Below are positions 15,227 to 64,000 of a DNA stretch of 64,000 nt, one piece after another. The stretch is from Tulasnella sp. 424 (Eukaryota > Basidiomycota > Agaricomycetes > Cantharellales > Tulasnellaceae). The position numbers and the translations under genes were made by a program. The notes under the pieces were generated by a model that saw only the letters and a program-made list of their open reading frames with translations, searched no databases and was not told the origin of the DNA. The first letter of the stretch is position 1, and each line of letters opens with the position of its first letter. The stretch covers positions 1 through 64,000 of the forward strand of contig WSUB01000092.1 of NCBI GenBank assembly GCA_019633425.1. The letters are read 5' to 3'.

Positions 15227-16771
15227 TCAGCTTCGTTCGCGACGGCCCACAATGCTTAGCTTGCCGTTCTGAACTTGGCATGTGTATGGTGGCGCGCAGA
15301 GTGTTGGCCCAACTGCAACGCGTAACCGCAGCACGCGCGTTCCATCCCAAATCAGTTACTCTCCGCTTATGCCGCACTCACAACTAATAACTTACGTGTA
15401 ACCAAACCCTCCGCACTGAGACCACTGCTGAATCTGATACGTCGATCCAATAAGTCCAACCTGAACCGTCGAGAACGTCACCGAAGCATTCAGTTCATTC
15501 ACGTCCACCAACGCGGGGTCTCCCGAATTCGTGGGGCACGTTCCTCGAGCCACTCCCGGCTAAGCTGAAGACGTACCGGCTGGGTAATTGCTGTCCAGCC
15601 ACAAAAGGTGTGCTGCGGGGTCATCCCCTGTTCAAAGATGCTCCCGAGTCCTCCATAATTCTCGAAGCTCGTCGGATCTCCAACCTCGATTCCTTCGCCG
15701 TGCAGTACCCTGCCGAAATGGAATTGCCTGCTGGGATTCCCGCAACGTTGACAGAGGCGTTCTGGATGATTGCGCCCCCTTGAATCCAGAGTCGTTGGAT
15801 CTCAGTGAGGGTACCCGTCGCCGTACCAGCGTCAGTAAGAAACTGCGTCACGACCGTGAACTTCTTCGTCCTGATGATCGTCTTGGAAGGACCTGCTGGC
15901 CATTGTGATAGGAATTGTAGTCGCAGCCAACTGGGTCGCAGACACCTCCGGTTGGGTCCGCCACGATGCCACATTCCGTCCCTGTGCATCGATATTGTCC
16001 CGTAACAGTCGACAAGCACGAGTGGCCGGTGAATGTCGATGAGATGGAGTTACCCTGAAAGAGGTCGATCTCGTTGCAGCAAAACCCGGATTTCACCACC
16101 CCTGAAGTCGACGATATAAGCGCCCAGTCGAGATTATTCACCTAACACGAACGGTCACTCAAGGTCAGCAAGCGAACTTGATACTTTCTGAGCGAACGTA
16201 CCTCTCCGCCGATCCACTTCAGATCCTTGGGGCACCGCGAATCACAGTACCCGACCCCGTACTTCGCTCCAGCGGTATTTCCGGGTTTTGCAGACACCCC
16301 ACCATCCGCTGCCATCTCGCCGAGTTGCGCTGACGCAGCGATCCCGCAAGGCAGTTTGCTCACGTCCACGTCGAACGCGATCTCTTGGTTCAAAAGCTTG
16401 AACAGCTCATACTTGGTACCAACATTCTGTCCTTGTTTCCACTTGAGAGTGACGGCCGTTCCGTTGCTGGTGATTCCGTAGGTACTGCTATAGTCCGCTC
16501 CTTCGAGCACGCAGTTGGACTTACACGTGGCCGGGTCGGGACAGATCGTTGTATCCCATTGGTTACCTGAGTTCGTGAAACCGGTCTTCGTGTGGTACCA
16601 CCTCCAGTTCGCGTCGAGAACGACTTGACCGCTGATGCTCTGTGCGCATCCGTGGCTTTCGCACAGCCGCCAGGTGAGTGAAGGATGGACCTCGGGGGTA
16701 AGAGTACTGGGACGCCGAGCGTTTGTGCATATAACTAGAAGCAGAGAGAGCAGAACAAGTGGGATTGCCAT
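15227..16771 (-). pseudogene. GH7 cellobiohydrolase-like copy 1 with degenerate CBM1, broken
   Basis: The first exon starts with a signal peptide (MAIPLVLLSLLLVICTNA) and carries GH7 blocks (PEVHPSLTW, VLDANWRWYH, NTAGAKYGVGYCDSRCPKD). After an intron the active-site strand reads CCNEIDLFQGNSIS, with Gln in place of the acid/base Glu. Beyond this the gene is broken. Frameshifts are needed near 15895 (after NGQQ), near 15690 (after YCTAKES) and near 15620, where about eight codons are missing. An in-frame TAG sits at 15560-15562. The C-terminus still shows part of a family 1 carbohydrate-binding module (WSQCGGFGYT, then LCAPPYTCQVQNG in a shifted frame), but the final YSQCL is gone. This is the only copy with recognisable CBM1 sequence on both sides of an intron. 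Confidence 0.85.
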
Positions 16772-17694
16772 GCTGCTTGCCTCGAGGGAGTCGTAATTTG
16801 GCTATGGCGTTCTCATTCAGCGTCCTCCGGTTCCTTCTTATACGCTCACAGGCGCAAAATGTCCGGTAGCCTGTCACAAAGACGAACTTTCAATGTTTAT
16901 TGTGTAGGTGCTTGGCGAATTAAAGAGGTTTATGAAAGTCGAATGAGCTCGGTCGCACCTACCTCAACGTATTACGACGTAGGCAGGGTCGCTGACCGAC
17001 TTTTTCTCTTCGCTTAGATCTAATTGATCTATCTGAAAGAGCGTCATTACACCGGGCAGCTTTAAGAAAATAATATTGTTTCTCCGTTTGCTCCTTATTA
17101 CTTAAGACATGCCTCAAGAGGGATTATAGCAGTGAAACCCTACCGTACCGATTAGCGTGCTATCATGACGTGTGAGTCCGAGGTGACGCCGCAGACAGTC
17201 TTGCCTCAGGCTATAAAAAGTACGGGTTGGCTGGGCAAAGTGAGTGGGAGGATTTACGACTGGGTACAGTCGGGCAGAAGCCTTGGATGCTTGTTCGGTG
17301 CGACAGCTAGTGCCAACGCCTCGTGTGTCCATACCCTCTCTCCTTCGAACTCACTTCTCCGAGCGCTCCTAATTCTATCACTCTCTGCTCGTCTTACTCT
17401 TCACCTACAGCTTCGATAACCAAAGAGCCTTTGGTCCGTCGTTCCGTCGTGATGCATGTAATTCAAAACCAGTTACATTTATGTTGAGCGGGGATCTAGA
17501 TGTATGATGTATCCGACTATGTACAAACACTCGGAGAAATACTCTATTCAACAGGTTAAATGTCAGCTTGGCTTTCGTCTCTTGATCCAAGCACCGGCAC
17601 AAACTCACGATTGACATATTGGCTATGGAGGAGTATAGGTATACAGTCCACTATGATCATCGAGATGCGCTTAGCTCTATATCAAGTTTGAATT
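16772..17694. other. Spacer upstream of GH7 copy 1 and downstream of copy 2
   Basis: Contains the promoter of GH7 copy 1: on the minus strand a TATAAG lies at 16837-16842, about 70 bp before the ATG, next to a TTTTGCGC element shared with copies 2 and 3. The stretch from about 17400 onward recurs at about 19960, so the left edge of the later duplication unit lies here. No gene is seen. Confidence 0.5.
16837..16842 (-). promoter_or_regulatory. TATA-like box of GH7 copy 1
   Basis: TATAAG on the minus strand, 66-71 bp upstream of the start codon at 16771. A GCGCAAAA element (plus-strand reading, about 16852-16859) follows. Similar elements at the same distance precede copies 2 and 3. Confidence 0.4.
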
Positions 17695-17750
17695 GTCTCA
17701 AGCCTTACGTGAATGCCTGACCACCACACGTTCCGTAGCGGGGAACGGTA
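17695..17750 (-). pseudogene. CBM1 relic just after the stop of GH7 copy 2
   Basis: Immediately beyond the stop codon at 17751-17753, a shifted minus-strand frame reads RYGTCGGQAFT and then meets a splice-donor-like GTAAGG. This matches the start of a family 1 carbohydrate-binding module (consensus YGQCGGxGYTG). It sits exactly where copy 1 has its CBM1 exon, with a donor at the same point. It suggests the ancestor carried a CBM1 that copy 2 lost through a frameshift and an earlier stop. Confidence 0.55.
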
Positions 17751-19176
17751 CTAAGCCGTTGTGCTGCCAATGGGTCCAGTCCGAATGTTCGAGAAGGTGA
17801 CATATGATTGTGCTCCGATTACTTCAATGTTCCCTTGGCTCGTAGGGCAGGTTCCCCTAAGCACACCAGGCTGGGTAGCTGGGGACGTGGGAGGATAGGC
17901 ACTGTCCAGCCAAAGGAAAGAGGTTGCCGGGTCGTTCTTGATGCTCAGCGACAAAACCATTCCTCTTTTCAACGCTGCGCTGAGAGTGCTGAACCCTCCG
18001 TGATTTTCGAAGCTCGGCGCGTCCCCGAATACGGACTCTTTCTGCGCACAGTAATTCGCAGTTATGGAATTAGCAGCACTGATACCAGGGACGTTGACCG
18101 AAGCATTCTGGATGACGACACCATTTTGGACCCAGAGTCGTTGGATCTCGGTGAGAGTTCCCGTTGCGGCTCCCGTGCCGGTGATGAATCGGGTGACGAC
18201 GGTGAACTTCTTACTGGTGTCGATAGTCTTGGCTGGGCCGTAGAATGTGGTCGCTCCATTTCGATAGCTGTTGTATTCGCATCCAAGGGGGTCGCAGACA
18301 CCTCCATAAGGACTTGTTGTCGTCCCGCAGGTTGCTCCAGAACATTGGTATAATCCCGTGACGGAGGATGAGCAAGAGTGACCGGCAAAGTCCGAGGAGA
18401 TCGAGTTGCCTTGGAAGAGGTCAACTTCGTTACAACACGCCCCATAATTGCCAGCCCCGTTCGGCGTCGAGGAAGTTACGGTCCAACCAAGGAGGTTTGC
18501 CTAAAGTGCCTCGACAAGGCAAGAGAGTGAGCAGGGAGTTGGTAATCTCCGGACACTTAGAGTGCCGAGTACCCACCTGTCCTTTGATCCATTTCAGATC
18601 TCTGGGACATTGCGCGTCGCAATATCCCACTCCGTACTTTGCCCCTGCCGTGTTCCCTGAGTCTGTTGACATTCCACCATCTGCCGCCATCTCGCTCAAT
18701 TGGACAGTCGCTGCCATGCCACATGGCAGGGCGCTCGCGTCCACGTCGATAGCAATCTCCTGGGCCAGGGGCGTGAATTTCTGATATGTGGTGTCGTTGT
18801 TGAGAAGGTATATCCTGGATCCCACAGTTGATCCTTGCACCCATTTGAGCGTGACTGAGCCGCCGCTAGTCGAAATGCCGTCGGAGAGGTAATCAACTCC
18901 TTCGATGACACAGTTTGCGTTGCATGTTACGGGATCCGGACAGAGGGTGGCGTCCCATGTGTTACCCGTGAAGCAGTTTGTGTAACCAGTACTTGCATGA
19001 TACCACCGCCAATTAGCGTCCAGGACAACCTTGCCGGCTTGGGTGGTGCATCCGCCAGCAGCCGTACATTTTGACCAGGTGAGGGAGGGGTGAACCTCAG
19101 GTGTCACCGTACCGGGATGTTGAGCGTTGGCAAGGAAAGCAAGGATAAGAGAAGAAAGCGTCGCGCGACGGTACAT
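17751..19176 (-). CDS. GH7-family protein, copy 2: intact frame, acid/base Glu replaced by Gln
   Basis: Two exons (18577-19176 and 17751-18500) join in phase to give 449 residues, close to the usual catalytic-domain length. A signal peptide (MYRRATLSSLILAFLANA) predicts secretion. GH7 landmarks are PEVHPSLTWSKC, VLDANWRWYH with the tunnel-entrance tryptophans, NTAGAKYGVGYCDAQCPRD, GGVCDPLGCEYNSYRNG and LWLDSAYPPTSPAT. The canonical active-site strand of GH7 is EMDIWE (nucleophile, Asp, acid/base). Here it is EVDLFQ, residues 225-230, so the nucleophile and Asp remain but the acid/base is Gln. The tryptophan preceding the LWLDS strand in active enzymes (SLWDD) is replaced (SIKND). I translated exon 2 codon by codon and found no stop. 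Normal hydrolysis is unlikely, and carbohydrate binding is possible. Confidence 0.85.
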
Positions 19177-19247
19177 TTTGGCGGAGCCTTGGTGAAGTGA
19201 ACGTGCTTATCGTTTGAGGTCTCGTACATTGTGTATTGAGACCCCGT

Positions 19248-19254
19248 TATATGA
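19248..19254 (-). promoter_or_regulatory. TATA-like box of GH7 copy 2
   Basis: A CATATAA sequence on the minus strand lies about 72-78 bp upstream of the ATG. A TTTTGCGC element follows about 15 bp further upstream. The arrangement matches copy 3 and resembles copy 1. Confidence 0.4.
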
Positions 19255-19659
19255 GGCTGCGAGCGCAAAATACACGGATAGTTATCGCCGAAAATATTTC
19301 AAGAGAATCTTGAAGGTTTGATTCTGATGCGTCTTATTCATAGAAGGGACCAAGTTTCGTGTGATCGGCGGAAGGAAGCCAGCGTATTCACCGCCCGATT
19401 CTGTTTAGCCTGATCTAGGGTATTGGACGGGCAGTGTTCAAATATTTTTTAGATATTTGGGCGGAATATCTCCTTCTAATGGGGCCAATCAGCTAGCTGG
19501 TGATACAGAGAAGAATCAGTAAAGTCACTCACGCGAACCTTGACGTGCCGACCCGAAGTGGATCCTCTTCTGCTCTCACGAAGGATTTTTTATGACTTGC
19601 ACCGATACCGACGGCATTCGTAGAACATACCGTTCCTTTGGTTGGCGGAGAGGGTTGTG

Positions 19660-19815
19660 CAAGAACCTATGCTTGTTACGACTGTGAATCTTTGACTGGT
19701 ATCGACAACCTTTCCAGGACCAACGCCGTAGAAAGAGGAATTTCCGAGTCGGTAAGGATTTTAATCTCATCCACCAGGATTACATGTGCGGCCGTATCTG
19801 TCGCCTTTGCAGAAG
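19660..19815 (-). pseudogene. Fifth GH7 relic (short fragment)
   Basis: On the minus strand this reads GDRYGRTCNPGG, a stop, then NPYRLGNSSFYGVGPGK and VVDTSQRFTVV. This is the segment that follows the active-site strand in GH7 enzymes (canonical [23 protein letters not shown]). It has two stops and no flanking GH7 sequence. It is closer to canonical cellobiohydrolases and to copy 4 than to copies 2 and 3. A nearby stretch (19610-19670) is repeated at 22145-22205. Confidence 0.65.
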
Positions 19816-20239
19816 CCTTGGGCGCCTTTCGGTGGGACAGCCTAGTACCCACGCCTCGCCGGCTCGGGTGTGGCTATTACCTCCCCCTTTTTCCAAATTC
19901 ACTTATCCGAGCACTCTTAAGCCTGCCACTTTCTGTATGTACTACTTTTCTCCTAAAACTTGGATAACCAAACAACCCTTGGTCCGTCGTTCCGTCGTGA
20001 TGCATGTCCTTCAAAACCAGTTACATTTAAATTGAGCGGGGATTTAGATATGTGATGCATCCGACTATTTACAAACACTGGGAGAAATGCTCTATTAACA
20101 GGTAAAAGGTTAGCTCGGCTTTCGTCCCTTGATCCGAGCACCGCCACAACTCACGATTGAGGTATTGGCTACAGAGGAGCATAGATATACGGTCCCCTGC
20201 AATCAACAAAATGCGCTTAGCTCTATCTCAAATTTGAAC

Positions 20240-20296
20240 TCTCTCCAAACTTACGTGAATGCCTGGACACCACGCGTTCCGTAGCCGGGAACGATA
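20240..20296 (-). pseudogene. CBM1 relic after the stop of GH7 copy 3
   Basis: Equivalent of the relic behind copy 2. The shifted frame reads GYGTRGVQAFT, so the cysteine of the CGG core is now Arg. This shows further decay after the duplication. Confidence 0.45.
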
Positions 20297-21719
20297 CTAA
20301 GCCGTTGTGCCGATGGGTCCAGTCCGAATGTTCGAGAAGGTGACATATGATTGTGCTCCGATTACTTCAATGTTCCCTTGGCTCGTAGGGCAGGTTCCCC
20401 TAAGCACACCAGGCTGGGTAGCTGGGGACGTGGGAGGATAGGCACTGTCCAGCCAAAGGAAAGAGGTTGCCGGGTCGTTCTTGATGCTCAGCGACAAAAC
20501 CATTCCTCTTTTCAACGCTGCGCTGAGAGTGCTGAACCCTCCGTGATTTTCGAAGCTCGGCGCGTCCCCGAATACGGACTCTTTCTGCGCACAGTAATTC
20601 GCAGTTATGGAATTAGCAGCACTGATACCAGGGACGTTGACCGAAGCATTCTGGATGACGACGCTGTTTTGGACCCAGAGTCGTTGGATCTCGGTGAGAG
20701 TTCCCGTTGCGGTTCCCGTGTCGGTGATGAACCGGGTGACCACGGTGAACGTCTGGCTGGTGTTGATAGTCTTGGCCGGGCCGTAGAACGTAGTCGCTCC
20801 ATTTCGATAGCTGTTGTATTCGCATCCAAGGGGGTCGCAGACACCTCCATAAGGACTTGTTGTCGTCCCGCAGGTTGCTCCAGAACATTGGTATAATCCC
20901 GTGACGGAGGATGAGCAAGAGTGACCGGCAAAGTCCGAGGAGATCGAGTTGCCTTGGAAGAGGTCAACTTTGTTACAACATGCCCCATAGTTGCCATCCC
21001 CGTCCGTCGAGGAAGTTGCTGTCCAACCAAGGAGGTTTGCCTAAAGTGCCTCGACAAGGCGAGAGAGTGAGAAGAGAGTCGGTAGTCTCCAGACACTGAG
21101 AGCGCCGAGTACCCACCTGTCCTTTGATCCATTTCAGATCTCTGGGACATTGCGCGTCGCAATATCCCACTCCGTACTGTGCCCCTGCCGTGTTCCCTGA
21201 GTCTGTTGACATTCCACCATCTGCCGCCATCCCGCTCAATTGGACAGTCGCTGCCATGCCACATGGCAGGGCGCTCGCGTCCACGTCGATAGCAATCTCC
21301 TGGGCCAGGGGCGTGAATTTCTGATATGTGGTGTCGTTGTTGAGAAGGTATATCCTGGATCCCACAGTCGATCCTTGCACCCATTTGAGCTTGACTGAGC
21401 TGTTGCTCGTCGAAATGCCGAAGTCGGAGAGATAATCAACTCCTTCGATGACACAGTTTGCGTTGCATGTTACGGGATCCGGACAGAGGGTGGCGTCCCA
21501 TGTGTTGCCCGTGAAGCAGTTTGTGTAACTAGTACTTGCATGATACCACCGCCAATTAGCGTCCAGGACAACCTTGCCGGCTTGGGTGGTGCATCCGCCA
21601 GCAGCCGTACATTTTGACCAGGTGAGGGAGGGGTGAACCTCAGGGATCACCGTACCGGGATGTTGAGCGTTGGCGAAGGAGGCAAGGATAAGAGAGAAAA
21701 GCATCGCGCGACGAAACAT
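20297..21719 (-). CDS. GH7-family protein, copy 3: intact frame, both catalytic Glu lost
   Basis: Near-identical tandem copy of copy 2, with exons 21117-21719 and 20297-21040 and a predicted 448 residues, including a signal peptide (MFRRAMLFSLILASFANA). The active-site strand reads KVDLFQ at residues 225-230: the nucleophile codon is AAA (Lys) where copy 2 has GAA, and the acid/base is Gln. The frame is nevertheless open to the end, cysteines are kept, and DANWRWYH and LWLDSAYP are intact. Other differences from copy 2 include QLSGMAADGG for QLSEMAADGG and NTSQTFTVV for DTSKKFTVV. With neither catalytic glutamate, this protein cannot use the known GH7 retaining mechanism. It is either a binding protein or an early pseudogene. 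Confidence 0.85.
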
Positions 21720-21790
21720 TTTGGCGGAGCCTTTGTGGAGTGAATGTGCTTATCGTTCGACGTCTCGTACATTGTGTACCGAGTCCCCGC

Positions 21791-21797
21791 TATATGA
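21791..21797 (-). promoter_or_regulatory. TATA-like box of GH7 copy 3
   Basis: TATATGA on the plus strand (TCATATA on the minus), 72-78 bp upstream of the ATG, at the same distance as in copy 2. A TTTTGCGG element lies just upstream. Confidence 0.4.
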
Positions 21798-22413
21798 GGC
21801 TGCGACCGCAAAAGACACGGGCAGTTATCGCCGAAAATAGTTCAAGAGAGTATCGAAGGTTTGATTCTCTTGCGTCTTATTTCTAGAAGGTACTAAACTT
21901 CGTGCGATCGGCAGAAGGATGCCAGCGTATTCACCGCCAGGTTCTGTTCAGCCTGACTTATTGAACGAGCAGTGTTCAAATATTTTTAGACATCTTGGGC
22001 GGAATATCTCTTCCCAACGAGGCCAAGCATGTAGCTGGCGATACAGAGAAGGATCGGTAAGGTCACTTACGTGCACTAACCTTGACGTGCCGATCCGCAG
22101 TGGAACCTCTTCTACTCTCACGAAGGATTCTGCCTAACTTGCATCGATGCCGACGGCACTCGTCGAACATACCGTTCCTTTGGTTGGCGGAGAGGGCGGC
22201 GCAAGATCCCATGCTTTCATACCACCACACAGCCTGATCCGATTTCTCTGGAACGAGTAAACCACGGGCCCCGGGGCATCACAAATGCAGTGTTTGACGC
22301 AGGAAACTTTCTATGGGAACCAACAACAGAATAGTAAACGAGTAAGCTCAAAGGGTAATGACACCACTGAGACGATTAACAGTAGGAAGTAGAGTGTGTG
22401 TTAGGAGCCATGT

Positions 22414-23882
22414 TTAGTACGTAGCGCCGATTGGACCAAATTTGATATTCGAAAATGTGACCGACGCATTAGGATACTGTGCTTCTAGTCCGTCGGAACT
22501 CCAGAGCTCTGGGAGCATGTCCCACGCGATGCCCCACTCCCTGTGGCGCCAGGAGGCTAGACACTGTCCAGCCAAAGTAGGTTCGCGTCAAGGTCGTCGC
22601 AGGGGCTGAGGATCAGTACCATACCTCCCGCCAGAGCCTTCGATATAGCCGGGAATCCTCCTTTGCATTTGAAGCGAGTAGTCTGGGGCCCGCTTCCTGG
22701 GCATTAACTCAGGTTATTGATACTGAGGGACGAGTTGCAGTAATCATCATTCAGAGAATTCCTAGGCCGCCGACGCCAAGTAGATTGATTGGAGCGTTCG
22801 AAATTACCACACCGTTCTGAACGTAAATGCGACAAACCTCGTTGATGGTTCCGGTGGGAGTACCATTGTCGGTGATGAACTGAGTTACGACTGTGATTTT
22901 CTTCTGGTATCGACAATTTTCCAGGACCAACGCCGTAATAAGAAGGGTTTCTGAGTCGGTCGGCATTGTAGTCGCATCCGTCAGGATCACAGAGACCGCC
23001 GTATCGGTTGCCGTTGGGCGAAGAGGTGCCACAGTCATCGGCGCCCTCCGTGCAGCGGTATTGATCAGAGATAGATGAAGAGTTGTTGGTGGAAATGGAG
23101 TTGACTTGCCAAAGGTCAACTTCCGCACAACATGACCCGTATCGGCCAACTCCGGACGTGGGAGAGGTCGGGACCCGGTCGTATATATTTGGCTCGACTC
23201 AGAAGTGAGACGTCAATGTGCAGTCGGAGGCTTGATGGAAGAGGAATCTCACCACGCCGTTGACAAACTTTAAATCTCTCGGGCACCGGGCATCAGTATC
23301 CCGTGCCGTACTTCGCCCCAGCCAGTTTCCATCCAGCCGATTTGGCCATCCCACCGTCCGCGTACATATCGGAAAAATGGACATCGGCGGCGATCCCACA
23401 GGGTAGATTAGATACATCGACATCGAACGCAACCTCCTCCGCTAGTGGGTTGAACGTTTCGTACGTGTTGTCGTCCTTCATGAGGTAGATTCGACAGCCT
23501 ACGTTTGGGTAGGTGATGATGCTTGCGGGGTGACGAAGCGAAGGGTTACGGAGTTCCCGCTTGTCATGATTCCATAGTTTCCGGCGTGCTCGTCTATTCC
23601 TTCGAGAACGTAGATGCCGTTGCAGGTTGGAAGGTTTGGACACCATTGAGCGTTGGTCCGAACGTTGCCGCTGAAACAGCCATGAGCGTCAACCTGCGTG
23701 TGATACCAGCGCCAGTTGGCATCCAGCACCATTTTGCCCGCCTGAGTGGTGCAACTGTCCCGAGAGACGCATTTCTGCCAGGTGAGCGTTGGATAAACCG
23801 AGGGGATCAGTGAGCCGGGGTGCTGTGCTAGTACCTGGACGAGGAAGCCTGATAGGACAGTAATTAGCCAAGGGTTGAGCAT
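22414..23882 (-). pseudogene. GH7 cellobiohydrolase-like copy 4, broken
   Basis: Starts with a signal peptide (MLNPWLITVLSGFLVQVLA) and reads through PSVYPTLTWQKC and VLDANWRWYH. Frameshifts follow near 23520 (after LRFVTP), near 23305 (two bases missing after YGTGY) and near 22915. The region 22480-22760 is also poorly alignable. The active-site strand is AEVDLWQVNSIS, so Trp is canonical but the acid/base is again Gln. The 3' end (ASVTFSNIKFGPIGATY, then a stop) is a normal GH7 catalytic-domain end without CBM1. It is clearly older and more diverged than copies 2 and 3. Confidence 0.8.
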
Positions 23883-28044: not shown

Positions 28045-30200
28045 CGTAAGTTGAGCGTCCTGACTTGATGGGAAGAAGCCGAGATGGTGGCTGGGTGAAC
28101 TTTGTTCGGGTCGATTTCCGAACCGAACTAACGAGCCAAATAGATCCAAGCAGTTTAGTTCCCGATTCCCTTTGCACCCCTGTTGCCTGTGACTCGAGGG
28201 AGTCTGTCTTAAAGTCAGCAAACCTTATACTCCAACTAATTGGAACGGTCGTTATACTAAATTAAATTCCACGCTTCATTGAAACTCTAAAGAACCTCGT
28301 CATTTCACGCCGCAGAAGTAATCCCGTGCCTGCGCCCTCTCGCATTCCGCAGAAACTAAGCCCCTGCAAAGAAGAGAGCCGACCCGGCATCGCCATAATC
28401 CATTGTGTATCGTAGATATGTTCGGTCAATCGTCGACAGACCAACCGCCCACGGCATCCGCTTTTGGTCAAAGCGCGTTTGACCAAGCCTTCCAGGGAAC
28501 ACCACTTTTTGGAGGGTCAGGAGTTGCAACCTTGGGCAGGTCAAATTTTCAACTACCCCAGTATCGAAAGTAAGTATTTAATCCTTAGGCGCTTTATACG
28601 GATTACTCATGTTTGTCTAAGAATCGATTCATTGCCTCCAGAATTGCTCTCAGTCATTTTCCTGGAGGCTATGCCCCATTACGACTGGAGACACAGCATC
28701 CCCTTTGATCAAGAGAGATTTCGTGACCCACTATTACTCGTGTGCCGGGGCTGGCGGGACGTCGTCAACTCCACACCCGAAATGTGGTCAGTCATATACA
28801 TCGACATGAGAAGTCAACCGGGTGCCGTTCGACGACTGGTGGAGATGGCAAAGTCTTCAAGCTTGGATGTACACATATCCAAATTCAGGACATGGATTAA
28901 AGAAGATGAGGAGGACACTTTCAAGGCAGCCGTCGCCACCGCTGCTCTCAAAGCTGACCAATGGGGTACCCTTGTACTGAGTGGGCATTTTCCCGAAGTA
29001 CAGGAGCTATACGAGTGGATGCCTCACTCTCTACCGGGGCTTCACTCTGCTATGATTCATATTCAGCTTGAATCTAACCCCAACGTGTGGGTGCCGTCCA
29101 TCTCGGCCCCCAAACTCCGCAACCTCGTCGTTAGGGGTGACAGCCAGTTCACCTTTGCAGATTGCCCGGAACTCCGGGAGTTAGAATTGGTCGAACTCTC
29201 CAAATACTGGGGAAGTCCGGATGTGGTTTGGGCCGACAACGCGCAAAGCTACTTCGCCCGGCTTTCCGGCGCTTGTCCTTGCCTTGAACATCTCACATTC
29301 GACTTGACGTATTTGAAAATTCAGAATCACGATCCGGGAGAAGACGTTCCAAACCTGCCTAGTTCAACCTGGCCATCCTTCCCCCGACTCCAGGTAATAT
29401 CGTTCAAATATTCAACATCCTCGATTATCGATTACTTCCTACGGCACCTGAGCACCTCGAATCCTTCTATCCTAAAATTCACTCGAGTAGACTGCGAGGA
29501 ATACAGGCCTTCCAGGCAGCTGCGTATCCCCCCCCTGTCGTTTCCTCCAACTGTACGGGCAGCCACTACACGACATCACACTGTTCCTCAGCAGCTTCAG
29601 CGACTTGTCTGGAGCTCTAGTCCAGGTGGCCGATACCACAGCAGCACTTGGCTTCACAACTGAGCGGGACCTTCGCCCACGATCACTGAGGTTGATCAAC
29701 AACACCGAGGAGCAGATGGAGCGGGTTGAGCAAATCAAGGATGATTGGGGATGGATATCGTCGAATACAAGAGTTCGGTGGTATTTTCCGGGAAGCACTC
29801 TGAAGGAAGGGGTTGAAGGAATTGGAGTTGGTAAAGCAATAGTCTACGCGTGTCAAGCCCTCGCGTCCGCGTCCAGGTATGTCAACTTGAATAAGGAATC
29901 GGATTTGACTTTAAACATCTGGACCGAGCAGCAAAAGATGGCTGAACGACAACCCAAATCTGGGGACAAGACAACAGGTGGAAGTTATTCTGTCGATTTT
30001 GTTGGACGTTTGCAACTAGCACAAAGGGTTCGGTTCGATGTTTCGCTGAAATTATTGGCAGGAATGAAATCTACCTTCAACATACTATCGAGGAACCGAC
30101 AACTTTCTTGGATGAAATGTATCAAATTTTGTCTGATGCAACTCCGTGGTGACTCCCGATGCTTTACACCTGGATGCGTATCCAAGTGGATTTTATCATC
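27430..30200. repeat. Segmental duplication, block 1 (FAD gene 5' half plus F-box gene 1)
   Basis: Matches 32770-35380 in the same orientation, including the roughly 370-bp spacer between the two genes. The offset between blocks is about 5.1 kb. The NmrA-like gene at 31264-32517 lies between the blocks. Confidence 0.75.
28418..30019 (+). pseudogene. F-box gene 1 with FG-repeat N-terminus, frameshifted
   Basis: Close paralogue of the gene at 33549. The first exon begins MFGQSSTDQPPTASAFGQ and has four FG dipeptides. After an intron comes a typical F-box start, IDSLPPELLSVIFLEAMPHY, followed by VCRGWRDVV-STPEMWSVIYID, then a repeat-poor leucine-rich region. At 29528-29535 there is a run of eight C. 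Compared with the paralogue the frame shifts here, and the downstream part (SGALVQVADTTAALGFTTER) continues in another frame. The final exon, after a splice near 29878, ends in SILLDVCN and a stop at 30017-30019, exactly as in the paralogue. Without the frameshift it would be a full-length F-box protein. A homopolymer sequencing error is an alternative to true inactivation. Confidence 0.75.
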
Positions 30201-33173: not shown

Positions 33174-35380
33174 CGTAAGTTGAGCGTCCCGACTTGATGG
33201 AAAGAAGCCGAGATGGCGGCTGAGTGAATTTTATTCGGACCAATTTCCGACCGAACGGCCGAGCCAAATAGGTCCAAAGAGATTTAGTGGCCATTCCCGT
33301 CCACTCCTGTTGCCTGTGACTCGAGTAAGTCTGTCTTAAAGGTCAGTAAACCTTGTCTTCTTGACAATCGGAGTGGGCTTATGCTAAATCGATTCCGCGC
33401 TTCATTGGAACCCTAGATACATAGTCTTGTCCCTTTACACCACAGAAATAACTCCGTACCCCGCGCCGTCTAGAACTTCGCAGACTTTAAGGCCTCTTTC
33501 TGCAAAAGAAAAGCCCGCCATCTCCATAACGCATTCCTTACTGTATACATGTTTGGTCAATTGCCGACAGACCAACCACCCATGGCATCCCTTTTTGGTC
33601 AACCCGCTTCTAGTCAGCTCGCCGCGTTCGGCCAACCCTTTCAGGGAGCACCAATCTTTGGCGGGTTTGAGGATGGACCCTTGGGCAGGTCTAATACCCA
33701 GATACCCCAGCATCGGAAGTAGGTAGATTGTCCTCTGGAGCTATACTACGCGGATCACTCATGCTTGTTCAAGAATCGATTCCTTGCCTCCAGAATTGCT
33801 CTCAGTCATTTTCCTGAAGACTATGCCCCATTACGACTGGAGACGCAACATCCCCTTCAATCAAGAGGGGTCTCGCGACCCACTATTACTCGTTTGTCGG
33901 GGCTGGCGGGACGTCGTTGAATCCACACCCGAAATGTGGTCTGTTATATACATCGACCCTAGGAGTAAACCAGGTGCCATTCGACGGCTGGTGGAGATGG
34001 CAAAGTCGTCAACTTTGGATATTTACATATCCAAACATCCTACATTCTCCATGCGCAATGAGGATGTTATGTTCAAAGCCGCCGTAGCCGTCGCTGCCCG
34101 CAAGGCAGACCAATGGGGTACCCTTGTGCTCAACGGGTATTTCCCCGAGGTACGGGAGCTATACGAGTGGATACCTCACTCTCTACGAGGGCTTCACTCT
34201 GCTATGATTCGTATTCAGCTTGAATCTAGCCCCAACGTGTGGGTCCCATGCATATCGGCCCCCAACCTCCGCACCCTTATCGTCCGGGGTGACAGCCAAT
34301 TCGCCTTCGCGGACTGCTCAGAGCTCCGTGACCTAGAGTTGGTCGACCTCTCTGAATACTGGGGAAATCCGGATGCGAATCCGGATGTAGTGTGGGCCGA
34401 CAACGCGCAAAGCTACTTCGCCTGGCTTGCCAGTGCCTGTCCATACCTTGAATGTCTCACATTCGGCTTTAGAAATTTGACGATCCCCACCCATGACCAA
34501 ACAGAAGACATTCCAAACAGGCCTGAAAGTAGCTGGCCGTGCTTCCCTCGACTCCAGGTAATATCATTCAACCACCCAACGTTATCAATCATCGATTACT
34601 TCCTACAGCACCTGAGGACCTCCAACCCGCTTATGCTGGAATTCAATGGAGTAGACTGTACAGCACAACCGCCTTCCAGGCGGCTCCACATCCCTCCCTC
34701 CTGTCGTTTCCTCCGGTTGTACAACCAGTCATTACATGGCATCAGACTGTTCCTCGGTAACTTCAGCGACCTGTCTGGAGCTCTGGTTGAGGTGGCCGAT
34801 ACCACGGCAGCATTGGGTTTCACAACCGAGATCGACCGCCGCCCACTACGGTTGAGGCCGGCCAGCAACGCAGTAGAGCAGATGGAACGGGCAGAGCGAA
34901 TCAAGGAGGATTGGAGATGGATATCATCAAACTCCAGAGTCCGATGGTGCTTTCCGCAAAGTGATCTGAATGACGGGGTAGAAGGAATTGGAGTCGGTAA
35001 AGCAATGGTTTACGCATGTCAAGCCCTCATATCCGAGTCCAGGTATGTCCTGTGAATGCAGCATCATATTTGAGTTAAAATAATATCCGGATCGAGCAGC
35101 AAAAGCCGGCTGAACGTCAACCCAAATATGGGAACAAGACCACAGGCGGAGGTTATTCTGTCCATTTTGTTGGACGTTTGCAACTAGCTCAAGAGGAATC
35201 CGGTTTGATATTTCGCGGACGGAATTAGCGAGCTGAATGGAGTGTGCCGTTAACATAATATGGAGGAATGCGACAATTCTCTTCGACAAACTTACCCAAT
35301 TCCTGCCGGAAGCAATCCCGTGATGACCATCGATGCTCTACACCTAGACAAAATGTTTAAGTGGACCTGATCAGCTGGTC
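32770..35380. repeat. Segmental duplication, block 2 (FAD relic plus F-box gene 2)
   Basis: Second block. The FAD copy has decayed while the F-box copy stayed open. In block 1 the opposite holds. Confidence 0.75.
33549..35187 (+). CDS. F-box protein 2 with FG-repeat N-terminus
   Basis: Exon 1 (33549-33718) encodes MFGQLPTDQPPMASLFGQ and continues with two more FG dipeptides, similar in look to nucleoporin FG repeats though very short. Exon 2 (from 33774) begins IDSLPPELLSVIF, an F-box, and runs with no break through VCRGWRDVVESTPEMWSVIY, several leucine-rich segments and SGALVEVADTTAALGF. It then splices near 35042 to a short last exon ending SILLDVCN with a stop at 35185-35187. F-box proteins link substrates to SCF ubiquitin ligases, and the leucine-rich part would be the substrate side. 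The last splice is supported by the paralogue, which conserves the same ending. Confidence 0.75.
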
Positions 35381-36050: not shown

Positions 36051-37894
36051 ATGGCTGGTGGTAAACGAACAACGCGAAAATCATCGACTGCGCCGAAAGG
36101 CTCCGTAGAGGTCAAGCACTCCTCGACACCGGCAAGCGAGTCCAAATCCTCTTCGAGACCTGCCGACATAGCAATAACTTTTTTCTTGTCCCCGCAGCTA
36201 CCCGCGCTCTTTCCATCCCTGAAATTCTTATCACCGTTTTGAGTCTGTGTGGGAAGCCGGATCTCGGACGTGCCGCGCTCGCCTGCCGCAAGTGGAGTCC
36301 CGTGGCATTGGACCACCTCTGGGAGGAGTTGGACTCCATTGTGCCCCTCCTTGCTCTCGTTCAGCCCCTCCGGTTAGTCTTGGGTGATAACGAAGAGAAA
36401 AGATGGGTTAGTGTCTTTATTGGACTACTCGAGCTCGTGTTTCTTAAATCTGGCATTCTGCAGGAGTTTGAAGGCAACGTCGCGGATGCCGATTGGGGTC
36501 GGTTTCGACAATACGCGTACCGGATACGGATCGTCGTTTTTGATGAGAACGATACCATTTTGGGGAAGAAGAAGAGCTTTATCGCCTTCTCTTCTATCCA
36601 AGCTCTGGCGTTCGTTCATCCGTTTGGCCCATCGCTCCTGCCAAATCTCCAACGGATTTTTTGGTGCTGCACTAGAGACGACACAGCCTTATGTATCCTC
36701 CCATTCCTATCACCTTCACTCCATACCTTGGAGCTCGACATCGACTCAGCCGTTTCCAGCCAGAGCTTCCAAAGGCTCCTTCGTTCCCTGGTTCACAGGA
36801 CACCATGCTTGAAACACTTTCAGCTTTCAACGAAGCTCGTCGTTGCTGAAATTAGCGACATCCTCGCACAATTGCTCAGCACAACGCCCACACTCCAAAC
36901 CGCAACGTTGCCCCAGTTTTTTCATACCCCGGAGATTTTGGTGTCACTTGGGCGCTTGGAGCAATTGGAGGAACTAAAGGCAGATTGGCGATACGCTAAC
37001 ACAGATTACTTCGAGAGGGGAACCACTCTACTTTTCCCTAATGGTTCCTACCCTGCTCTGAGGACCCTCCATTTTCATAGCTCTCTCGCGTTAGCGACAA
37101 TGTTGTTCAAAACGACGGGTCCCATATCCCAACTGAAAGAAGTATGCTTCAGCACCCGCAAATGTTACCCTTTCAAATTACTCAAAGAGTTCCTCTCCGC
37201 CGTTACAAGAGGTTGCCCTCAACTCGAAGTTCTACACCTGAATTTCGCCTCGATCATCGACGACCCCGGCGCAGGAGGCTCACTCGCGCTAGACAACCTG
37301 CGGCCCTGTCTCTCTCTCGTTCACTTGAGGGAGTTACAGGTTGCCTATGATTGCTCATTTATCCTTCGAGATGACGACGTTTGGGAGATGGCACGAGCTT
37401 GGAAAAACCTCAGGGTTCTCCGGCTTTGCAGCGATCCAGGCGATTTCATGGAATATGTGGGCACCCCCATCGCCATTCTCAAGACCTTTTCTCGCGCAAT
37501 CCCCGACTTGGAGTATCTTTCCCTTTACTTCCATGAAAACGAAGTCCCTCAGTTTGAACCGGACCTAAAGTTCGAGGACGGCTTTAACGGTCCATTCGAA
37601 CTTGATGTGGGGTTCTCTCTCGTCCCAGGGGGTCAGGAACATTCCATAGGATTCTTCCTAGGGACCCTGTGTAGACAGAAGCCAACCATAAGCGTGACGC
37701 AGACGGACTGGACGGCGTGCAGCGATTATCAGTGGCCGCAGAAAGGAGAGCAGGAGGACAAAAAATGGGGTCGTGTGGAGGCGCTCGCTAGAATGATTTG
37801 CCAAGCAAAGATGAGCATCAATACGAGGATCCAAAGCCTTCTTTCAAGGGTCGAGAGTCTCGAAAGGATGATTGTTCCGACCGCTGCGGCTTGA
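36051..37894 (+). CDS. F-box/leucine-rich-repeat-like protein
   Basis: The main exon (from about 36198) opens with ATRALSIPEILITVLSLCG, then LGRAALACRKWSPVALDHLW, the usual layout of Agaricomycete F-box proteins. Leucine-rich segments follow (PNLQRIFWCCTRDDTALC, CPQLEVLHLNFAS, WKNLRVLRLCSD, IPDLEYLSLYFHENEV). The C-terminus has a predicted coiled helix (SINTRIQSLLSRVESLERMI). The start is less certain: an ATG at 36051 with a donor at 36058 and acceptor at 36197 gives MAATRALSIPEIL in phase. About 570 residues. A role as SCF substrate adaptor is inferred from the family. Confidence 0.65.
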
Positions 37895-56730: not shown

Positions 56731-57071
56731 GTTGCGGTGTCTCCAAAGCTCTGAAATACGCAGCTTGAAAAGGGGTACTGATGGTCATCAAGTAAGCCAC
56801 TAATAGTAGGGCAGAAGGTCATTAATGCCGATGGGGCGCGGTTTTGGAGAGATCGGGGACTTAAAGTAAGTCCAGAAGCCCAAAGCTGCTAATTTCAGAC
56901 ACTGAACTTGACAAATCAATTGAGTTCGGGCATCTGAGCTACGCGGTGTTTGATATTGATCAGTCCGATAGGAGAATGTATAAGGACTTGGCTCACTTTG
57001 TCTCGATAATCTCCATCGCTCCAACTCTTTGCGACATCTCCATTCATCTCTCCAGAAAGCATCCTTCCACC

Positions 57072-59162
57072 ATGACCCAGACCCTCGACAAAGCAACCTA
57101 CGACAGACTGACGACCGAACGCATCACCAACACCAACATCGGTGCGTTCGACCAGCTCACTATCGTCTCGCAACGCGCCATCAACGGGCAGCTTGCCCAT
57201 ATGTGGAAAAACCCGAAATCCATCCTCCGCAAAATCGAAGTTAGACCTCGTCCCAAACTCACCGAGTACTACTTCGTCGCCGACCTCGATCCCCCGACCG
57301 TCAAGCTTCTCACTGGACCGAACAAGCAGCAAGTCATCTTCTACATCAACATCAAGGTGAGACCGTCTTTTTTTACCCGCCAGAGTAACTTGAGCGCTCG
57401 TTAACTGCTTCCCTTTTTTCAGTCCGGCACAGTTGGTTACTACGAAGGTGTAGGCCCTGAAGCAGAGTTAGTTCCAGGCCAGTCTTAACTTCGAGGCGAG
57501 ACGCTGATCACGTTTGACCGCTGTTAATAGACCTAAAACAGAGAAGCTCGGAACTTCTCGGCTTGCCCTTCGTGTCAACATGGCGCTCGATCAACTCAAA
57601 GAAAACGGGGTTCCTGAACACATCCAAAAGGCCCTCAAGAAGGTCGATGACTACAGCGTCAAGCAGCTACTCTTCGACTTCACCAGTTAGGTAGATTCAT
57701 ATTCAGGCGTGTGATTCTTTGCTGATGTCCGACTGTTCTTCAGCCGCCGACTTGATTCCCAAACTCAACGGAGTCGACAAGAATGAATCCGAATTCAACA
57801 TATCCAAAGAAGCCGAAACTTCCTTTTACGCTTTGCTCGGAGACTACCTCGATATTCTTCGAAAGAAAGACCCGAGTGGCAATCCTGGAGAACATAGCAT
57901 CCTTCACTACGTCGCCACGGCCAAGAACGCCCAGGTCTATACTGCAGCTCCTACCTGCGCCCCAACCGATTTGAACTTCCAGAACCTGCCGTTCGTAATT
58001 GTTGATAGCGATAGGACGGGAACGACCGACGTCCTTGAGGGGAAGAACAACATGTTGGTATACCTCCAGATGACGAATGACAACAAGATGCCCAATGCCC
58101 TGTTAGAGCCCTCTGTGAGTCTTTGCGATCTATGATAGAGGGTGAACAAAGCTGACCCAGAATTCTCTTTCTCCTGACGCTCTGTCACACTGGTGGTTTG
58201 CTCGACTGTGGTCACGCAGGCCAACTGGGTTATGCCTCCCTTCGACCAGACGTCTGAATCGTACGACGGTACGGTTTGCCTCTCCAAAGCCACCTTCCTC
58301 GATGGATTCCTTCTCCCTAAACTTGCCCTACTCAATTCTGAGTCTACGTGGGTCGTCAGCGAAGCTCGGGGGACGGCGGAATTCATTGCGCTTTTACCTG
58401 TGCCTCTGATCACCTACGAAATGCGCGGGCACCTCGGGTTGACGAAGGAAGACGAGCAAAACTTCCGGTTCAAGGATTATCAGTGGAAGCCGTCGAGCTC
58501 AGGAGATGGAACGATAAGGTACGAATACAAACATACGAACAGGATGGAACAGCCGGATCAGCGGGTCTATCAGCAAGGTGTGTTGTATGTGCGGTCGCTG
58601 GTGATGCCGAGGGCTGATGCACCGAATAGGGAAGACTACAAATTCTCTCACAGTCCCTGAGGGTCTCGACTCATCTGGCAAGTCCGTCATAAAGATTTCG
58701 GGTACTACGGAGGTCGAGTCGTTTCTCCACTTGCTGGGTGCGGTCGGAGAGATCGGCAAGACTACGTATGGCGCGCTTTCACTCACTCATCGGAAATTGA
58801 ACTCTGAATACCTTTCTCTTTGCAGTTGTTGGGTTACATGCGCCTGGGAAGCATCCCTTATCCTAGACGGTGTCGATGACGGGGGTCTCAAAATCACTGT
58901 CGACGAACTCAAACCCAAAACCACCACCAAGAACGACACGTCCTTCCTATACCCGGACATCTTGAAGGACATTGAAGAACAGTGCAAAAGACTATTCGAG
59001 AACAGCAATCTTAACCACATCAAGGCGAGTCTTGAAGGGCTGTTTGCAGACAGTTGGTCCTTCGTGTTCTCGCAAGGTCGGGATTTCTACATCGACAAGG
59101 CATGCTTCAACCGGGAGGGCGATCTCATCTGTCAGCTGAAGTACAAGAGCGCTGGCGTATAA
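57072..59162 (+). CDS. Gene B of duplicated divergent pair: unknown, possibly TULIP/P-47-like
   Basis: Six exons join in phase. Exon 1 starts MTQTLDKATYDRLTTERITN and reads TNIGAFDQLTIVSQRAINGQ, then FVADLDPPTVKLL. Later exons carry ADLIPKLNGVDKNESEF, ANWVMPPFDQTSESYDG and a C-terminal end WSFVFSQGRDFYIDKACFNREGDLICQLKY (read in two parts), with a stop at 59160-59162. About 600 residues, no signal peptide or membrane helix. The opening D-Q-x-x-x-S-x-x-A-I-N pattern, alternating strands with one helix, and the closing GD-L strand recall the P-47/OrfX group of TULIP lipid-binding proteins. This is a weak, by-eye resemblance. A second copy starts at 63299. Confidence 0.75.
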
Positions 59163-62955: not shown

Positions 62956-63298
62956 ACGTTGCGGTGTCTCCAAAGCTCTGAAATACGCAGCTTGAAAAGG
63001 GGTACTGATGGTCATCAAGTAAGCCACTAATAGTAGGGCAGAAGGTCATTAATGCCGACGGGGCGCGGTTTTGGAGAGATCGGGGACTTAAAGTAAGTCC
63101 AGAAGCCCAAAGCTGCTAATTTCAGACACTGAACTTGACAAATCAATTGAGTTCGGGCGTTTGAGCTACGCGGTGTTTGATATTGATCAGTCCGATAGGA
63201 GAATGTATAAGGACTTGGCTCACTTTGTCTCGATAATCTCCAGCGCTCCAACTCTTTGCGACATCTCCATTCATCTCTCCAGAAAGCATCCTTCCACC

Positions 63299-64000
63299 AT
63301 GACCCAGACCCTCGACAAAGCAACCTACGACAGACTGACGACCGAACGCATCACCAACACCAACATCGGTGCGTTCGACCAGCTCACTATCGTCTCGCAA
63401 CGCGCCATCAACGGGCAGCTTGCCCATATGTGGAAAAACCCGAAATCCATCCTTCGCAAGATCGAAGTTAGGCCTGATCCCGAAGATACTGACTACTACT
63501 TCGTCGCCGACCTCGATCCCCCGACCGTCAAGCTTCTCACTGGACCGAACAAGCAGCAAGTCGTCTTCTACATCAATATCAAGGTAAGACCCTTTTTTAA
63601 CCCACCAGAGTTACTTGAGCGCTCGTTAAACTACTTCCTTTTCTTTAGTCTGGCACAGTCGGTTACTGGAAAGGTCGCGGCCATCGAGCAGAGTTAGTTC
63701 CTAGCCAATGTTAACCTCGAGTCGAGACGCTGATAACGTTTGACCGCTGTCTATAGGGCTAAAACAGAGAAGCTCGGAACTTCTAGGCTTGCCCTTCGTG
63801 TCAACATGGCGTTCGATCAGTTCAAGGGAAATGGAGTTCCTGAAAACATTCAAAAGGCCCTTAAGAAGGTCGATGACTATAGCGTCAAGCAGTTAATTTT
63901 CGACTTTACCGGTTAAGTCGAATTCTTATTCAGCCATGTGATTCTTTGCTGATTCTGTCCGACTGTTCTTCAGCCGCCGACTTGATTCCCAAACTCAACG
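63299..64000 (+). CDS. Gene B copy in unit 2, cut by window end
   Basis: Starts with the same MTQTLDKATYDRLTT and keeps the first three introns at matching places. Exon 1 differs mainly in one loop (RPDPEDTDYYFVADLD against RPRPKLTEYYFVADLD). The next exons read SGTVGYWKGRGHRAE, then KTEKLGTSRLALRVNMAFDQ, and the window ends in the exon that begins with ADLIPKLN. No stop or frameshift appears in the visible part, in contrast to its broken gene A neighbour. Confidence 0.75.

Follow-up and report, generated by a model that had tools for sequence, protein, structure and literature searches.

A tandem GH7 array in Tulasnella sp. 424 has lost the catalytic acid/base glutamate and probably encodes a lineage of secreted pseudoenzymes

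Among the cellulases of fungi, glycoside hydrolase family 7 (GH7) is one of the main families. The first 64,000 nucleotides of contig WSUB01000092.1 of Tulasnella sp. 424 (assembly GCA_019633425.1; this whole stretch is referred to here as the window) contain a tandem array of four GH7 copies, A to D, in which the catalytic acid/base glutamate is replaced throughout by glutamine. We consider it probable that the array represents a lineage of secreted GH7 pseudoenzymes in which catalysis was lost before the duplications and which selection subsequently preserved as a non-hydrolytic protein. Both elements of this reading, the loss of a catalytic residue and purifying selection on the protein, are found, the latter in a codon-position skew that is stronger than in a pseudogene control of the same genome and in the substitution pattern between the two open copies, B and C.

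Residue positions were mapped onto the sequence of T. reesei Cel7A, whose numbering is used throughout. Direct reading of the codons at the acid/base position gives Gln in all four copies (CAG in D; CAA in C, B and A), in agreement with the initial annotation of this region. The motifs are EIDLFQ in D (16072–16055), EVDLFQ in C (18428–18411), KVDLFQ in B (20971–20954) and EVDLWQ in A (23123–23106), so the ExDxxE signature of GH7 catalytic enzymes, described as typical of the family (PMC4176579), is missing from every copy. The loss goes further in B than had been claimed, since the nucleophile is also replaced there by lysine (E212K), the only such change among the four motifs. A PF00840 profile search of the assembly (46.8 Mb, 448 contigs) gave at least 48 matches among the best-scoring candidates, which were grouped, beyond the window, into at least 20 loci or fragments and, inside it, into the four copies and one remnant; as only the best candidates were scored, all locus counts are lower bounds. 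Glutamate occupies the acid/base position in 16 of the 17 loci found outside the window that cover it, namely 13 full paralogues, two loci cut or disturbed near contig ends (L013 and L025) and L026. The seventeenth, the broken gene L024, has Val, and L012, L027 and a second GH7 piece in L026 end short of the position. Glutamate is also present in all four PDB reference sequences used.

The genome carries an expanded GH7 family, and several of the loci L009–L023 lie on contigs C65 and C235. L026 (G000:C257:165500-171200) is a divergent GH7 gene with the motif EVDLFE that retains the catalytic triad and carries the active-site changes R251V, W367S, Q175K, A143S, T226S and N141K; read by eye, it has a linker and a CBM1-like tail, and its further GH7 fragment lies downstream within the locus. 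L024 (G000:C3:30600-33400) is a GH7 pseudogene near L023, and its active site reads EMDVWV.

In the array the loss reaches beyond one residue and is concentrated at the catalytic centre. Of 16 numbered residues listed as −1/+1 contacts (PMC8987026, Table 1), 13 are invariant across the 13 full paralogues and the four PDB sequences, and these formed the tested set. Seven are changed in C (A143T, Y145Q, E217Q, T226A, R251P, D259L and W367K), compared with 28 changes among the remaining 147 invariant positions (p = 0.009). In B eight are changed, the same seven positions plus E212K, compared with 31 among 148 (p = 0.003). The corresponding values for the broken copies are 6/12 against 31/139 in D (p = 0.04) and 5/11 against 27/138 in A (p = 0.06). 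Beyond the contact list, B and C also carry N141A and D368N, at positions that we take to be ligand contacts. Counted with losses within the list, Y145, N141, R251, D259, W367 and D368 are gone from both copies. C retains E212, D214, H228, D173 and Q175.

As the initial annotation had it, B and C keep open frames (448 and 449 residues, each with a single 76-bp GT–AG intron and a TAG stop), the full complement of invariant cysteines (17/17) and the tryptophans W38 and W40; W376 and R394 are kept as well. Cysteine loss in the broken copies amounts to one of the 16 covered in D and two of the 14 covered in A. The PF00840 matches of C (553.1 bits) and B (541.1 bits; cut-off 27) span positions 2–434 of 435, the best PDB chain match of the array protein is 4v1z_A (E = 1.1e-144), and the N-termini of both copies are hydrophobic and resemble those of the paralogues, a putative signal peptide as judged by eye. 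In fold family over nearly the full length, in cysteines and entrance tryptophans and in an intron that sits where active paralogues have theirs, the array resembles the GH7 cellobiohydrolases (Cel7A of T. reesei, A. fumigatus and Heterobasidion), from which it differs in lacking ExDxxE, in its acid/base Gln and in its replaced −1/+1 contacts. It differs also in being four residues short where the paralogues carry the A1-loop region, and in a stop codon placed immediately after the catalytic domain, which leaves it no linker or CBM1; some other GH7 genes of the genome, read by eye, carry linkers and CBM1-like tails. Each of the full paralogues (n = 13) has 20 cysteines, and a pair near their C-terminus is without counterpart in B and C. 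The tunnel entrance is retained, though not specially retained: in the entrance set taken from PMC5701224, with offsets mapped to T. reesei numbering, N37, W38, W40, N49 and K181 are kept and N103 and N200 are changed.

The acid/base change appears to have arisen once, before the duplications, a conclusion already drawn in the initial annotation and here well supported by the protein tree. All copies fall into a single clade, (A,(D,(B,C))), with an ultrafast bootstrap of 100 at each node, and have L91V, N141A, G142A, N200T and E217Q in common; in view of these shared changes, independent glutamate losses in the four copies were rejected. The position of the clade next to active paralogues is weak (support of 52). 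R251P and the loss of D259 are common to D, B and C; since A still has R251 and D259, it may represent an earlier stage.

Had the array evolved neutrally since then, similar rates would be expected at the three codon positions, and this expectation fails for the C, D and A lineages. Synonymous sites within the clade are saturated, the proportion of synonymous differences (pS) between older copies being 0.76–0.79 and that of nonsynonymous differences (pN) 0.25–0.35 (0.770 and 0.315 for A against C); the ratio of nonsynonymous to synonymous divergence (dN/dS, or omega) was therefore set aside for long branches in favour of codon-position counts. The rows for A and D consist of in-frame pieces matching GH7, pieces under 20 residues being dropped, so that they may understate divergence; D shares 396 codons with C, and A 379. 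The opening 20 columns of the alignment and those with thin coverage were removed before counting. Between C and D the proportions of differences at codon positions 1, 2 and 3 are 0.293, 0.225 and 0.606. Private changes in the C lineage number 66/467 at positions 1+2 and 58/121 at position 3 (rate ratio of 0.30), with 79/470 and 68/130 in the D lineage (0.32) and 127/528 and 76/139 in the A lineage (0.44). The pseudogene L024 served as neutral control, its private changes being countable only where L022 and L023 agree: they number 22, 22 and 23 at the three positions (287 codons), or 44/536 against 23/201 eligible sites (ratio of 0.72, p = 0.20), which is no significant skew. For each of the lineages C, D and A the skew is significantly stronger than that of L024 (p = 0.0001, 0.0001 and 0.004, respectively). 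Because these three lineages are skewed in a way that L024 is not, the codon pattern indicates that protein-level selection acted long after the acid/base loss.

The recent history of the array can be followed in B and C, which differ at 44/1344 coding positions, 161/967 flanking positions and 8/76 intron positions. The method of Nei and Gojobori (NG86) gives dS of 0.076, dN of 0.0255 and dN/dS of 0.33 (Fisher p = 0.0005), and maximum likelihood gives an omega of 0.42 (interval of 0.24–0.74) that lies below 1 at p = 0.003; for the mature part with the identical 3′ tract removed, omega is 0.44 (0.22–0.89). That tract comprises codons 329–444, identical in the two copies while their flanks differ by 15–18%. 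It is probably a gene-conversion tract, and conversion is likely to have contributed to the likeness of the two coding parts, since synonymous sites are less diverged than the flanks (p = 9e-6).

The initial annotation treated B and C as two intact copies, and although both are indeed open, they do not appear equal. Polarised against D, A or L011, 18 nonsynonymous changes divide into 14 on B, E212K among them, and four on C (p = 0.031; three further changes could not be polarised). The polarised synonymous changes, five on B and 12 on C with two left unpolarised, make for an unreliable split because third positions of the outgroups are saturated, and for the same reason the contrast of synonymous to nonsynonymous changes, 5:14 on B and 12:4 on C (p = 0.0067), is weaker than it looks. 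When synonymous changes are shared equally between the two branches, B has an omega of about 0.47 and C one of about 0.13; a seven-taxon branch model gives 0.067 for C and a value not different from 1 for B. Neutral evolution of B after the duplication would agree with these data. The promoter regions differ too: TATAA lies at −75 in C and at −71 in D, the 200 bases upstream of the ATG hold no TATA[AT] match in B or A, and all 13 other loci checked (L016, L025 and L026 left out) have TATA[AT] between −94 and −142. B looks relaxed and C constrained, constraint on the recent C branch taken alone being suggestive, and C is the best candidate for the working gene of the array. On the best reading of these data, the array is reduced to about one maintained gene.

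Several results weigh against a maintained lineage. Part of the likeness of B and C is probably due to gene conversion, B evolves without clear constraint, the omega of the C branch differs from 1 at p = 0.053 only, and under the branch model B and C are not significantly different (likelihood ratio statistic of 2.47, p = 0.12). In the unpolarised comparison of L023 with L024 the ratio of differences at position 2 to those at position 3 is 0.52 (0.33–0.76), which overlaps that of C and D (0.37, 0.30–0.44), this pair being less clear because the constrained gene L023 is mixed into it. Two of the four copies are dead, and the lineage is to that extent shrinking. GC content at third codon positions (GC3) is 0.585–0.642 in the clade versus 0.682–0.786 in nine others, which could reflect weaker expression. 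Entrance residues are no better kept than average, with two of seven changed in C as against 26/140 elsewhere. Finally, one E217Q mutant of T. reesei Cel7A is quoted at 14.26 per min at 55 °C (PMC8987026), so E217Q alone need not be fatal to activity.

One rival reading is that the array is simply decaying, catalysis having been lost and the copies drifting, with B and C not yet broken. Such decay would agree with the broken state of A and D, with the excess of nonsynonymous changes and the lost nucleophile of B, with the missing TATA[AT] match upstream of B and with the reduced GC3. It fits poorly with a pN of only 0.25–0.35 at synonymous saturation, with a codon skew in C, D and A above that of L024, with an omega below 1 between B and C and with the intact cysteine set of these two copies. 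We regard it as unlikely. The initial annotation gave a dN/dS near 1 in the two intact copies as a sign of simple decay, and the values between them, 0.33 and 0.42, speak against this, as does the strong codon-position constraint in the older lineages.

In the history that we favour, an old GH7 lineage would have lost catalysis ahead of the array duplications and would then have been retained by selection in the form of a secreted GH7 jelly roll without hydrolytic activity. A glucan chain, either a cellulose end or a cello-oligosaccharide, would be threaded or held uncleaved at the retained tunnel entrance, for which W40, W38, N37, N49, K181, D179 and R107 are the proposed binding residues; at present C would be the maintained copy, with B drifting and A and D dead. 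The array protein is probably a glucan binder, and the more specific role of a binder of chain ends or cello-oligosaccharides is one that we infer by analogy with MpChi of Moniliophthora perniciosa, an inactive secreted GH18 chitinase-like effector with E167Q in its catalytic motif (PMC8960721). Both cases involve a natural change from Glu to Gln in a catalytic motif; they differ in family and ligand, and for MpChi binding of chitin oligomers has been shown. A second point of comparison is the E217Q mutant of T. reesei Cel7A, which has the identical acid/base change and whose crystal (PDB 4C4C) holds cellononaose (PMC8987026), but which is made in the laboratory and has its other active-site residues intact. 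More tentatively, the array may belong to a GH7 branch with a lectin-like or decoy role that has lost the acid/base and the −1/+1 floor, has kept the chain-entry half and all disulphides, and is maintained and expressed as a secreted protein both here and in related fungi.

The main rival of the binder reading is a decoy at the protein level, in which the dead GH7 would bind a cellulase inhibitor or other protein and so shield its active paralogues. The precedent is PsXLP1 of Phytophthora sojae, an inactive GH12 protein that acts as inhibitor decoy for PsXEG1 (PMC8960721) and, like the array protein, has a working secreted glucanase as its paralogue. GH7 paralogues that have intact motifs and could be shielded are numerous in this genome, and the array protein keeps its fold-holding residues around a lost active centre. 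The parallel weakens in that PsXLP1 belongs to another family, lost catalysis by a C-terminal deletion and is 67% identical to its partner (PMC8960721), whereas C is full length and 54.5–58.7% identical to the 13 full paralogues. We hold this decoy role to be rather doubtful.

That the array protein remains an enzyme through another acid, mechanism or substrate, of which the initial annotation allowed for another mechanism, is most improbable: E212, D214, H228, D173 and Q175 are kept in C, and the mutant quoted above at 14.26 per min is active, but another study found kcat of T. reesei Cel7A to fall with E217Q from 12.8 to 0.0063 per min, about 2000-fold (PMC8987026), the acid/base, R251, D259, Y145 and W367 are all replaced at −1/+1, and B has lost E212 as well. 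Hydrolysis by C is very unlikely because Y145, W367, R251 and D259 are lost besides E217Q.

If a non-hydrolytic lineage has indeed been maintained, the GH7 tunnel would be useful without cutting, whether by holding a chain end, by sequestering cello-oligosaccharides or by shielding active cellulases; cellotriose has been called a plant damage signal (PMC10026868). The array would also provide a naturally evolved parallel to the E217Q mutant of mechanistic work, and a warning that PF00840 gene counts overstate cellulase capacity. Among the listed titles and beginnings of abstracts in the open PMC subset, no natural GH7 protein with a lost acid/base residue was found, by which absence from print is not claimed; genomes of bacteria and archaea were also scanned and, as expected, yielded no confirmed relative.

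The array is encoded on the minus strand and, followed in the direction of transcription, runs A, B, remnant, C, D. Copy A (22417–23882), the deepest branch of the clade, and copy D (15434–16771) are broken, with GH7-like pieces in shifting frames and one in-frame TAG between two pieces in each; in D the frame of exon 1 is open and exon 2 is spread over several frames. GH7-like pieces end at 15434, and not at 15227, where the initial annotation had set the limit of the array. Copy B consists of exon 1 (21117–21719), a 76-bp GT–AG intron (21041–21116) and exon 2 (20297–21040). In copy C, exon 1 (18577–19176) encodes residues 1–200 with the hydrophobic N-terminus, the intron (18501–18576, likewise 76 bp and GT–AG) has the place and phase found in active paralogues, and exon 2 (17751–18500) encodes residues 201–449 and the TAG stop. 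The two copies are part of a 2.4-kb direct duplication, the unit with C (17274–19674) being 90.3% identical to that with B (19809–22216). The array does comprise four copies, as described initially, but a GH7 remnant (19675–19809) is present as well, where the two duplicated units meet; since it resembles the interior of A (77.8% identity to 22884–23016), an A-like gene probably contained the breakpoint of the duplication. Retroposition was rejected as the origin of the copies because B, C and D retain the family intron.

A Pfam scan of ten neighbouring frames gave no hint of function: it matched an NmrA-like gene, F-box-like genes and a DUF899 gene, and five others had no match above the curated cut-off. 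The F-box-like frame 36065–37894 scores above the Pfam cut-off and the frames 28416–29663 and 33727–35055 below it, the latter two being alike in translation by eye. Frame 63092–63697, the only member of its pair to be scanned, has no Pfam match; by eye it is nearly identical to the open frame 56865–57404, about 6 kb away.

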